The notes under the pieces were generated by a model. It did not search any database, was not told the DNA's origin, and was given only the letters and a program-made list of their open reading frames with translations. From assembly GCA_002863145.1 (NCBI GenBank), contig PKDW01000125.1:1-34974 (forward strand): a stretch of DNA of 34,974 bases, given 5' to 3'. The stretch is from Flavobacteriales bacterium (GTDB lineage Bacteria > Bacteroidota > Bacteroidia > Flavobacteriales_D > Sanyastnellaceae). Made by a program: the position numbers and the translations under genes. This document shows positions 25,215-27,898 of the stretch, piece by piece; positions within the stretch are counted from its first letter, which is position 1; every line of letters begins with the position of its first letter.

Positions 25215-26105
25215 GTGTCGACTCTCGCCTCTTCTTTCTCCCCCGACACGGGTTTTGCCTCCAAGGCATGGCTCAACGATGAGGGCCACACGTTTTCATC
25301 GTCAGGATGTTCTGTGGGTGTCACCCGCACCACCCTGAAAGGTTTGCTCTCCTTGACGTGCACTCCTCCTTGGGCCTTGCACATGGGACTCCAAGGCGAT
25401 TTGAACACCCAGCAAGACTTGGTGTCTTCTTGCGCAGGCATGTCGACAATGCTCCACGTGCTGGATCTCGGTCCCCGCGCCCATGAGCGCCTTCAGGCAC
25501 CTCACGGGTGGCAGGACATCACGCGACACACACGGCAGAGCACATGGTCCGAAGACAAAGGTTGGGACGTGGGCAAATCCCGGCAAAAGCAGTCCGCACG
25601 ATTCCTGCGCGACGAAGGGACCGTGACCGTCACGGAACACCCTGAAGCCTGGCAGGACGTGCATGCGCTTCACTTGGCTTCCCGAACCCGCAAAGGCCTT
25701 GCGCACCACGGCAACAAATTGTCTGCGTTGCTGAATCGTTTGGCCGACCAACCGTGGACCTTTGCGGTGTTGGCCCTCAATGAAGAGGGAGAATGTGTGG
25801 CGTCTGGTGGCTTTGTCGTGCTTCAAGACCAAACCTGCGTCTACGCCTTCGGCGGCCAAGTCCGGTCCAAAGTCTCGGGCCGTGCCTCCGCCGCCATGTT
25901 GCTCGCGGCCATGGATGAAGCCAAGGCACGGGGCTGCACCACCTTCGACTTTGGGGGCAGCCAAGATCCCGGCGTGGACCAATTCTATGCCGAATTTGGG
26001 TCACGTGCCGTGCCCATGCGCCGTTGGGTTCATGCCCCTTGGTGGTTCAAGTTTTGTTTCCCGCAAACGTGGTCCGCTTGGACCACGCCCTCGCCTCACT
26101 TCTGA
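25215..26105 (+). CDS. FemAB/GNAT-like acyltransferase, probable GTG start
   Basis: This is a 296-residue cytoplasmic protein resembling the GNAT-type or FemAB-type acyltransferases of Bacteroidota, some of which attach amino acids to cell-wall precursors or lipids. The clearest segment is near the C terminus: ASAAMLLAAMDEAKARGCTTFDFGGSQDPGVDQFYAEFGSRAVPM, similar to the FemX/Acetyltransf_6 end. An N-terminal part (FSPDTGFASKAWLNDE) fits the two-lobe layout. No ATG precedes the conserved region; GTG 25215, 12 bases after the upstream stop, is the best start. The 3' end overlaps the convergent oxidoreductase gene by 10 bases. The substrate is unknown. Confidence 0.72.
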   Translation: MSTLASSFSPDTGFASKAWLNDEGHTFSSSGCSVGVTRTTLKGLLSLTCTPPWALHMGLQGDLNTQQDLVSSCAGMSTMLHVLDLGPRAHERLQAPHGWQDITRHTRQSTWSEDKGWDVGKSRQKQSARFLRDEGTVTVTEHPEAWQDVHALHLASRTRKGLAHHGNKLSALLNRLADQPWTFAVLALNEEGECVASGGFVVLQDQTCVYAFGGQVRSKVSGRASAAMLLAAMDEAKARGCTTFDFGGSQDPGVDQFYAEFGSRAVPMRRWVHAPWWFKFCFPQTWSAWTTPSPHF

Positions 26106-27124
26106 GTGCGCCCTTTGGCGTGCATAGCTTCGATGGCCGCCACCACCGCGAGCCCCTCTTCCACGGGTGTGGCCACGTCATGTCCGTCCAACAAGACGCC
26201 AAGCACGTTGTCGTAAACGTGATGATGGTTGGCCGCGGACCCAGTGTACCCTCCGTAGTCGTTGGGTGGTGGCGCCTGGGCCAACGTCGGCTTGAGGGTG
26301 TCGGGCATTTGGAACTCCTCCAAGCGGTCCATGTATTGCCCGCCAATACGGACCATGCCTTTGTGCCCCATCACCGTCATGCTGCTTTCAAAATTGCAGT
26401 GCGGCGAAGACGTACTGAACGTCAAGGTGCCCCATCCCCCGTGACTGAGCCGGAAGCGCACCGTCCCTCCGTCCTCAAATGCGGTGTCAGGATGGGTTTG
26501 GTTGACAAAGTGTGCGTCCTCCACGTCAAAAGGCCCAAAGACCCACATCAGGATGTCAATGAAGTGAGAAAACTGGGTGAACAACGGACCGCCATCTTGA
26601 TCCATGGTGCCGCGCCACGACCCAGGGGTGTAGTACCGTTCGTCCCGGTTCCACAGGCATTGCACATGCACTTGAAGCACCTCGCCAAACCCACCGGATT
26701 CGTGGGTTTGCTTGAGCCATTGGGCGGCTGGCGCATACCGGTTTTGCATCACCCCAAACACCCTCACATCCTTCGCTTCCGCGTCAATCTTCAACCGTTC
26801 CACCGACGCCACATCCAGCCCCAAGGGCTTCTCGACCACCACATGACAACCGGCGGCAACCGCCTCACAAGCGAGGTCGATGTGGCTGCCATTGGGAGTC
26901 GCCACAACAACGACATCCACATCCAATGAAGTCAGCGCCGAAGAAAGCGTTGCAAAGGCACGTGCCTCAGGAGCCCAGGGTCTCCGAGACACATCCCCCT
27001 CTTCTGCCCAGGCGCGGTCGACCACCGCCACAAGCGTGGCGCGCTCGTCTCCTTGAATCATGGCCGCATGGCGCTTGCCAATGTGACCGCATCCCACCAC
27101 AGCAAAACGTACAGGTGCCCTCAT
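26096..27124 (-). CDS. Gfo/Idh/MocA family oxidoreductase
   Basis: This is a 342-residue NAD(P)-dependent oxidoreductase of the Gfo/Idh/MocA family. The Rossmann motif VVGCGHIGKRH is at residues 9-19 and the catalytic EKP motif is at residues 98-100 (VVVEKPLGLDVAS). The C-terminal substrate domain has GGPLFTQFSHFIDILMWVFGP, where the usual G-G-x-L-x-D-x-G-x-H motif appears as GGPLFTQFSHFID. Family members act on sugars or sugar nucleotides; the substrate here cannot be told. The frame extends upstream, but ATG 27124 fits the Rossmann start and has an exact TACCTTTG box four bases before it. It is divergent from the BtuF-like gene. Confidence 0.9.
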   Translation of the reverse strand: MRAPVRFAVVGCGHIGKRHAAMIQGDERATLVAVVDRAWAEEGDVSRRPWAPEARAFATLSSALTSLDVDVVVVATPNGSHIDLACEAVAAGCHVVVEKPLGLDVASVERLKIDAEAKDVRVFGVMQNRYAPAAQWLKQTHESGGFGEVLQVHVQCLWNRDERYYTPGSWRGTMDQDGGPLFTQFSHFIDILMWVFGPFDVEDAHFVNQTHPDTAFEDGGTVRFRLSHGGWGTLTFSTSSPHCNFESSMTVMGHKGMVRIGGQYMDRLEEFQMPDTLKPTLAQAPPPNDYGGYTGSAANHHHVYDNVLGVLLDGHDVATPVEEGLAVVAAIEAMHAKGRTQK

Positions 27125-27128
27125 GCGA

Positions 27129-27136
27129 CAAAGGTA
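27129..27136 (-). promoter_or_regulatory. -7 promoter box (TACCTTTG) of oxidoreductase, near-leaderless
   Basis: On the minus strand TACCTTTG is followed by TCGC and ATG 27124. It is back to back with the plus-strand box at 27143-27150, six bases apart. Confidence 0.65.
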
Positions 27137-27142
27137 GCGGAC

Positions 27143-27150
27143 TACCTTCG
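27143..27150 (+). promoter_or_regulatory. -7 promoter box (TACCTTCG) of BtuF-like gene, near-leaderless
   Basis: TACCTTCG is followed by catc and ATG 27155. Together with the minus-strand box it forms CAAAGGTA-gcggac-TACCTTCG, a nearly palindromic pair of divergent promoters. Confidence 0.6.
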
Positions 27151-27154
27151 CATC

Positions 27155-27898
27155 ATGCGCGTGGTCTCTTTGGTGCCGAGTTGGACGGAGTTCCTGCATG
27201 ATCTCGATGTGGATGTCGTGGGACAAACCAAATTTTGCGTTCGTCCTGCCTCCAAGTTTCGGGCGTTGCCGCGCATCGGTGGCACCAAAAACGTCAAGGT
27301 CGAAGACGTCCTCGCCCTGAAACCCGACCTCGTGGTGGCCAACCGTGAGGAGAACGACAAGGCCCAAGTCGAAGCCTTGATGGAGGGCTTGCCGGAGGGC
27401 GTGCTGTTGACCGACGTGCGCACCGTCCCGGACGCATGGGCCGCCATGGCACAAGTTGGATCACGCGTGGACCGTGCCGTGGACGCCCGCGACATGGTGA
27501 ACCGCATTCAAGATGCTTGGGGCGAACCACGCGCCATCGTGGGGCAGGCGGGATATGCGGTTTGGTCTTCTCCATGGATGGTGGCAGGACACGACACGTT
27601 CATCCACGACGTCATGCGCCATTGGGGCATCGCCAACGCCATCGACGGAGGTCCGGAAAGCCGCTACCCCACCACAGGGAAGGATCTGGAGCGCGGAACT
27701 CTTGCGGCCCGACAGTGGCTGCTCCCTTCCGAGCCCTTCCCCTTTCAACCCAAGCACCTTCCCGCACTGCACGCAGCCCATCCCGAAGCGCGCTTTCGCT
27801 TGGTGGACGGCGAGGCCTTCAGTTGGTATGGGTCACGCATGCTCCATGTGACAGCACACCTTAACGAGGTGGCCCAGTGGGTTGCAGAAACCGCTTAA
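27155..27898 (+). CDS. BtuF-like helical-backbone metal receptor without signal peptide
   Basis: This is a 247-residue protein of the periplasmic-binding-protein fold with a helical backbone, related to cobalamin- and iron-chelate-binding proteins (BtuF/FepB type). Typical parts are VVSLVPSWTEFLHDLDV, VGQTKFCVRPASKFRALPRIGGTKNVKVEDVLALKPDLVVAN and MLHVTAHLNEVAQWV. It starts directly with the fold, so it has no signal peptide and would stay in the cytoplasm, unlike classical binding proteins. No ABC permease or ATPase for import adjoins it. ATG 27155 is chosen over upstream in-frame starts because of the fold's beginning and the -7 box four bases upstream. Confidence 0.85.
   Translation: MRVVSLVPSWTEFLHDLDVDVVGQTKFCVRPASKFRALPRIGGTKNVKVEDVLALKPDLVVANREENDKAQVEALMEGLPEGVLLTDVRTVPDAWAAMAQVGSRVDRAVDARDMVNRIQDAWGEPRAIVGQAGYAVWSSPWMVAGHDTFIHDVMRHWGIANAIDGGPESRYPTTGKDLERGTLAARQWLLPSEPFPFQPKHLPALHAAHPEARFRLVDGEAFSWYGSRMLHVTAHLNEVAQWVAETA

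Follow-up and report, generated by a model that had tools for sequence, protein, structure and literature searches.

How two divergent genes can both be served by an intergenic gap of only 30 bases is the question raised by this locus. In the window, by which we mean the whole analysed stretch of 34,974 nucleotides, direct reading of the sequence places the ATGs of an oxidoreductase gene (minus strand) and a metal receptor gene (hereafter PBP, plus strand) on either side of positions 27125-27154. The 36 bases from 27122 to 27157, both start codons included, read CATGCGACAAAGGTAGCGGACTACCTTCGCATCATG. The original prediction recognized in this gap two -7 boxes, each four bases from an ATG, and rereading of the sequence together with near-zero counts for control motifs confirms it. 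Either box lies exactly 4 nt from its own ATG, 6 bp separate the two, and the gap is made up of 24 bp of promoter elements and this 6-bp spacer. The near-palindrome is one promoter element in two outward-pointing copies, of which 8 of 11 half-site positions match when counted by eye. We consider it likely that the locus consists of two separate minimal promoters that abut through genome compaction and the absence of a patatin gene, and that are weakly coupled at most.

Table 1 Coordinates of the genes and promoter elements at the divergent locus.
Feature	Position	Strand	Evidence
Gfo/Idh/MocA-family oxidoreductase gene, 342 aa; CAT (ATG) at 27122-27124	26096..27124	-	Pfam PF01408 1.6e-22, PF22725, PF02894
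BtuF/TroA-like helical-backbone metal receptor gene (PBP), 247 aa; ATG at 27155-27157	27155..27898	+	PF01497 5.5e-13, NF038402
-7 box TACCTTTG of the oxidoreductase promoter (CAAAGGTA on the plus strand)	27129..27136	-	Sequence; genome-wide enrichment; 8/8 columns invariant in 9 genomes
6-bp spacer GCGGAC between the boxes	27137..27142		Length kept in 9/9 genomes; 2/6 columns invariant
-7 box TACCTTCG of the PBP promoter	27143..27150	+	Sequence; genome-wide enrichment; 7/8 columns invariant in 9 genomes
Discriminator of the oxidoreductase promoter, -4 to -1; predicted TSS 27124	27125..27128	-	Box-TSS distance in F. psychrophilum and F. johnsoniae; C at -1
Discriminator of the PBP promoter, -4 to -1; predicted TSS 27155	27151..27154	+	Box-TSS distance in F. 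psychrophilum and F. johnsoniae; C at -1

As evidenced by its Rossmann domain PF01408 (80.8 bits, cut-off 24) and its family C-terminal domain (68.1 bits, cut-off 27), the oxidoreductase is a member of the Gfo/Idh/MocA family; no NCBIfam equivalog model reached its cut-off for this protein. The PBP belongs to the TroA/BtuF-like helical backbone metal receptors (NF038402 TroA_like, scoring 144.7 bits where 30 are required). Its identification as BtuF itself, the binding protein of the vitamin B12 ABC transporter, was rejected with 36.4 bits against the equivalog cut-off of 234. Judged by eye, the PBP apparently has no signal peptide and is cytosolic. Its N-terminus, MRVVSLVPSW, aligns with relatives from residue 1. 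The PBP frame stays open in the 5' direction to a TTG at 27053, across the divergent promoter region and into the oxidoreductase gene, and the translation of this upstream part (27053-27155) does not have the look of a signal peptide by eye. Neither sigma-70-type promoters nor terminators were found between 26900 and 27400, and Rfam gave no match between 26500 and 28200.

The box at either gene follows the primary-sigma pattern of Bacteroidota. Published studies locate the -7 box of F. psychrophilum between -12 and -5 (PMC9723704) and that of F. johnsoniae 4-5 nt from the TSS (PMC6847099). At our locus TACCTTTG is an exact TAnnTTTG, the primary-sigma motif, at -12 to -5, and TACCTTCG carries a C at -6, a variant that 30 of 70 such promoters in the source genome share. 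Since each box lies 4 nt upstream of its ATG, within the distance of the Flavobacterium boxes from their TSSs, both transcripts are predicted to start on the A of the ATG and to be leaderless mRNAs. Their predicted starts, one on either strand, are separated by 31 bp.

Genome-wide counts show that such placement is common. In the source genome (2.14 Mb, 187 contigs) TANNTTYGNNNNATG has 134 matches (72 + 62), compared with 14 for the reversed control. A sample of 799 kb, consisting of 40 stretches plus the window, contains 657 genes predicted by a home-made gene finder. The program chose a later GTG for the oxidoreductase and so missed the true start in the window, for which reason the scan took in all in-frame ATGs between the upstream stop and a point 150 nt into the gene. 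TANNTTYG stands exactly 4 nt from an in-frame ATG in 55 of the 657 genes and the reversed motif in none. At 5, 6 and 7 nt the box was found in 15, 9 and 8 genes (reversed motif 0, 1 and 0), and a second, small rise appears at 19 nt (11 against 0). A C at -1 precedes 95% of the 55 starts with the box at 4 nt, and the oxidoreductase promoter has it too. Its value as proof of a TSS is weakened, as 69% of 261 box-less predicted ATG starts and 39% of all ATGs also have a C there.

According to the original prediction, any -33 contact would lie inside the opposite gene. The geometry is correct: with the TSS on the A, position -33 of each promoter lies in the opposite start codon (27122 and 27157). 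The -33 element itself, however, could not be detected. Neither TTTG nor TTG occurs at that position at the locus, and among 70 leaderless-type promoters of the source genome, in which the box precedes the ATG by 4 or 5 nt, the columns from -45 to -17 never exceed 0.13 bit over background. In this set a TTG starts at -33 three times and a TTTG never; a weak preference for G is visible at -16 and -13. The study on F. johnsoniae (PMC6847099) likewise reports that no -33 motif is evident. Because these promoters have no -33 element, the overlap with the opposite start codon probably has no consequence.

Conservation was followed in the genus, which comprises 11 genomes, 9 of them testable; G005, with fragments lying at contig ends, and G009, which gave no match, were left out. 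The 30 bp and both boxes are kept in all nine, as are both ATGs, at a PBP identity of 60-93%. Invariant columns make up 15 of the 16 box positions compared with 1/20 and 3/20 third codon positions in the flanking 60 nt of coding sequence, a pattern which indicates that the boxes are under constraint. Of the four columns in each discriminator, only 1 and 0 are invariant. Mean identity, out of 9 genomes, is 8.17 for the spacer and 6.75 and 5.50 for the discriminators; the 6-bp spacer, being more conserved than the discriminators, may carry function. Absence of the arrangement from close relatives that keep the gene pair had been named as evidence against it. Within the genus this is not the case, but outside it six g4 genomes, in which the PBP is directly divergent from the oxidoreductase, have gaps of ~84 to 486 bp.

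Further divergent pairs show the arrangement as well, and so do further genera. Two outward-pointing boxes with 0-30 bp between them occur at 4 places in the source genome, where the control gives 0, and in 237 cases across 79 of 114 family genomes, with the control at 0 in all 114. At 31-61 bp the double arrangement is present in 57 of the 114 and absent from the source genome. Across the class the arrangement with 0-30 bp was found in 63 of 396 genomes, the control matching in 8 of 396. Elsewhere in the source genome compact pairs consist of a QRPTase with a SPOUT methyltransferase, a RidA-like protein with an aminopeptidase P (of which the N-terminal part was seen), an acyl-CoA carboxyltransferase with another PBP_2-like protein, and a thioesterase with a protein of no assigned family. 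These partners do not look like genes for alternating expression.

Repeated 36-base cases were not counted as independent. We rejected the argument that a preferred spacer proves a single fixed device: spacers scatter, and many of the repeats are orthologues of a single locus. At each locus the spacing is usually constant across the genus, whatever its value. By eye, the QRPTase pair keeps 37 bases in 4 of 4 genomes and the thioesterase pair 48 bases in 8 of 8, and other loci shift slightly (42-43, 53-55). These locus-specific spacings speak against a single fixed device, yet for constraint per locus, and the strictness seen here, as at the majority of the genus's other loci, exceeds the demands of simple compaction. 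Exactly 6 bp between outward boxes was seen at three loci of the genus; besides ours, one is conserved between HU-like and MutY-like genes (G000:C2:47667-47688, L166) and one is conserved upstream of a tRNA-Val gene (G000:C31:69-90, L176, L171-L174).

Pairing itself is no more frequent than chance predicts. Leaderless-type starts account for 46 of 194 divergent starts in the 799 kb, and 5 of the 97 divergent gaps have both sides leaderless, compared with 5.45 expected under independence; an excess of double-leaderless pairs was thus tested for and is absent. Four of the five span 30-36 bp and one spans 487. Median gaps are 34 bp with both sides leaderless (n = 5), 110 with one (n = 36) and 188 with none (n = 56); one-sided rank tests between the classes gave p = 0.022 and 0.034 on small numbers.

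The genera with the most pairs per genome are g9, g3, g1, g4 and g14, whose means are 3.1-5.5; genera of the family with larger genomes have almost none. Across 21 genera, mean genome size and pair count are negatively correlated (Spearman -0.62, p 0.003, uncorrected for phylogeny and based partly on incomplete MAGs). As far as a correlation can show, the counts fit genome compaction. Size alone does not account for them, since g9, at 2.75 Mb, averages 5.5 pairs and g10, at 2.2 Mb, only 0.65; g20 is also small with few. In family f53 all 8 genomes (G176, G212, G242, G270, G294, G318, G340, G361) have 5-10 pairs each at 1.8-2.3 Mb, the highest counts in the class sample.

That these two genes are neighbours is best explained by an older shared gene cluster. 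The PBP and the oxidoreductase lie on the same contig within 4 kb in 52 of the 74 family genomes bearing the PBP; in the remaining 22 they are on different contigs or there is no listed oxidoreductase match (2). A functional link between the genes, hinted at in the original prediction, therefore draws its support from this conserved neighbourhood and not from the promoter itself. In g10 the oxidoreductase follows the PBP on one strand at 63-108 bp (12 genomes). In g2, g5, g6, g8, g11, g12, g16 and g19 a gene of ~2.3 kb lies between the two, all on one strand (14 genomes). This middle gene was read in seven loci, and the one that was scanned encodes a patatin (PF01734); patatin matches inside the PBP-oxidoreductase gap were obtained in further genomes. 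In g4 and g9 the PBP is divergent from a patatin-oxidoreductase unit, except in the six g4 genomes mentioned above. No patatin was found in the 11 genomes of the window's genus by a search that was positive in 64 of the 114 family genomes, and an earlier patatin search of the genus, run without a positive control, gave the same blank. Seen across family f1 (e.g. L102, L110, L112), the neighbourhood comprises three genes, for the receptor, a patatin-like protein of ~760 aa and the oxidoreductase, in one-strand as well as divergent layouts.

Both promoters can be found apart from one another in these relatives. Where the oxidoreductase follows patatin in g4 and g9, the script located its box 4 nt from the ATG in five of six loci (L104, L110, L113, L114, L115); in the sixth, L103, the box is at 4 nt by eye, the script having started from an ATC that precedes the ATG by three bases. 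Six loci from more distant genera differ: the oxidoreductase box is 14-21 nt off in five (g12, g2, g5, g16, g11), and L111 has none. PBP and patatin starts are 42-47 bp apart in g4 and g13. Two canonical boxes at 3-4 nt are present in 10 of the 21 divergent loci examined, and in the other 11 at least one box is non-canonical or misplaced. The simplest history, with a direction of change that we infer, is that the start-adjacent promoters arose first and that loss of patatin then joined them.

How do two such promoters compare with bidirectional promoters elsewhere? A 2021 survey by Warman, Grainger and colleagues reportedly describes bidirectional promoters in E. coli as well as in other prokaryotes. 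Like those, our locus has predicted divergent starts that are probably too close for two polymerases, and such promoters mostly drive mRNAs. In the promoters described there, the commonest distances between TSSs are 18, 10 and 23 bp, and the starts lie around or inside a -10 element that is shared or symmetric. Here, by contrast, two complete and separate -7 boxes lie 6 bp apart with predicted TSSs at 31 bp, and the Bacteroidota box is not self-symmetric; the locus thus has neither the shared, overlapping or symmetric -10 nor the typical TSS distances of 10, 18 or 23 bp by which Warman and Grainger define the class. A study on E. coli bidirectional promoters (PMC12825309) reports that two polymerases cannot bind starts so close, that basal activity was too low for competition in all five promoters tested, and that repression of one side appears upon strong activation of the other.

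These comparisons bear on the two regulatory suggestions in the original prediction, mutual exclusivity of the genes and a single bidirectional promoter. Judged from the 31 bp between the predicted TSSs, simultaneous binding of two polymerases is sterically unlikely. A true regulatory site, at which the polymerase picks an orientation and expression is reciprocal, would agree with this distance, with the steric exclusion and activation-dependent repression described for E. coli (PMC12825309), with the conserved length and sequence of the spacer and with the recurrence of exactly 6 bp at three loci of the genus. We nevertheless regard it as improbable. Housekeeping-type pairs share the identical layout, spacer lengths in the family start at 1 and extend past 30, no value prevailing, pairing does not exceed independence, no -33 element that could be displaced was detected, and E. 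coli promoters at basal activity show no measurable competition (PMC12825309); the claim of mutual exclusivity is not upheld by this. Two joined promoters are a likelier reading than a single bidirectional one, because each promoter exists separately in sister genera. A somewhat different proposal, possible though still unlikely in our estimate, is that streamlined Flavobacteriales converged on a minimal bidirectional module. It would consist of two -33-less leaderless promoters, fused back to back with fixed, locus-specific spacing, in which each polymerase footprint covers the other start codon and the choice of orientation sets a stable mRNA ratio and lowers noise. If so, selection rather than incident would lie behind the strictly conserved spacing, the conservation of the spacer and the abundance of such loci in genomes of at least two families (f1, f53).

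The inverted repeat of 22 bp, CAAAGGTA-N6-TACCTTCG, could also serve as an operator for a dimeric repressor or activator of both genes, which could be co-regulated members of a cluster; the near-palindrome and its conserved spacer would suit such a role. The half-site alone, however, precedes many unrelated ATGs by 4 nt (134 in the genome), inverted pairs occur with many spacings, and the N6 pair is found 1-4 times per genus genome, the two other cases examined in the source genome flanking the HU-like/MutY-like pair and the tRNA-Val gene. With half-sites that stand alone and spacings that vary, we rejected a transcription factor operator as very unlikely. It is harder still to credit that chance or annotation has produced the locus through wrong ATGs and accidental boxes. 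Start codons are uncertain in principle, as the GTG chosen by the gene finder and the PBP frame open to the TTG at 27053 illustrate, but boxes and ATGs persist in all nine testable genomes, with PBP identities ranging over 60-93%, and reversed-motif controls are near zero.

Two separate promoters pushed together thus remain our preferred explanation, and the locus would then work as follows. Two primary-sigma promoters (sigma-ABfr/sigma-A type), each comprising only the -7 box TAnnTTYG and 4 nt, would fire outward, transcription starting on the A of each ATG and giving two leaderless mRNAs. Heavy use of start-adjacent, -33-less promoters in a compact genome would have allowed promoters to abut. 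They would do so here because the patatin gene that sister genera have between PBP and oxidoreductase is absent from the genus, which would leave two pre-existing promoters in the least space that holds them. Polymerase would probably bind one at a time, with weak coupling at most at ordinary promoter strength, and both genes would be expected to be expressed in the same cell. Their adjacency would go back to the older shared cluster PBP - patatin - oxidoreductase.

Placed among known promoters, the locus is a divergent promoter pair of compact form, and the lineages concerned have unusually many of these. It resembles Bacteroidota sigma-ABfr/sigma-A promoters in the box TAnnTTTG, the 4-nt TSS distance and a -33 element that is weak or missing, as described for F. 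johnsoniae (PMC6847099). It differs from their consensus in that TTCG is as acceptable here as TTTG (30/70 vs 40/70). Start-adjacent placement is much commoner than the 5.5% of leaderless mRNAs given for F. psychrophilum (PMC9723704), although the two counts differ in kind. In TA-led leaderless genes a -10-like box ~10-12 bp before the start codon is taken as a sign of leaderless transcription (Zheng et al., PMC3160421), and our promoters likewise have a -10-like box close before the start codon. That survey filed many Bacteroidetes genes as atypical, whereas here a clear class of predicted leaderless genes appears, also back to back. A partial literature search returned nothing on back-to-back leaderless promoters in Bacteroidota.

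At 30 bp, and with neither -33 elements nor predicted leaders, the region illustrates how compact a bacterial divergent promoter region can become. It also offers a sequence-level case of how such a site may be assembled, from two start-adjacent promoters and the loss of an intervening gene. Families f1 and f53 provide natural loci frequent enough for testing polymerase competition and leaderless translation. The gene pair in turn flags a conserved three-gene neighbourhood of a TroA/BtuF-like receptor, a patatin-like protein and a Gfo/Idh/MocA oxidoreductase. Finally, TAnnTTGC takes the place of TAnnTTTG before the PBP ATG in g9 and some of g4 (L193, L196, L198, L201, L202, L203, L215; at 5 nt in L104 and L113). 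It resembles the motif SM5 (TAnnTTGY), which PMC9723704 assigns to a probable alternative sigma factor, and a change of sigma factor on one side of the pair may have taken place in these lineages. In the source genome TAnnTTGY is found at 4 nt from 5 of 657 starts.
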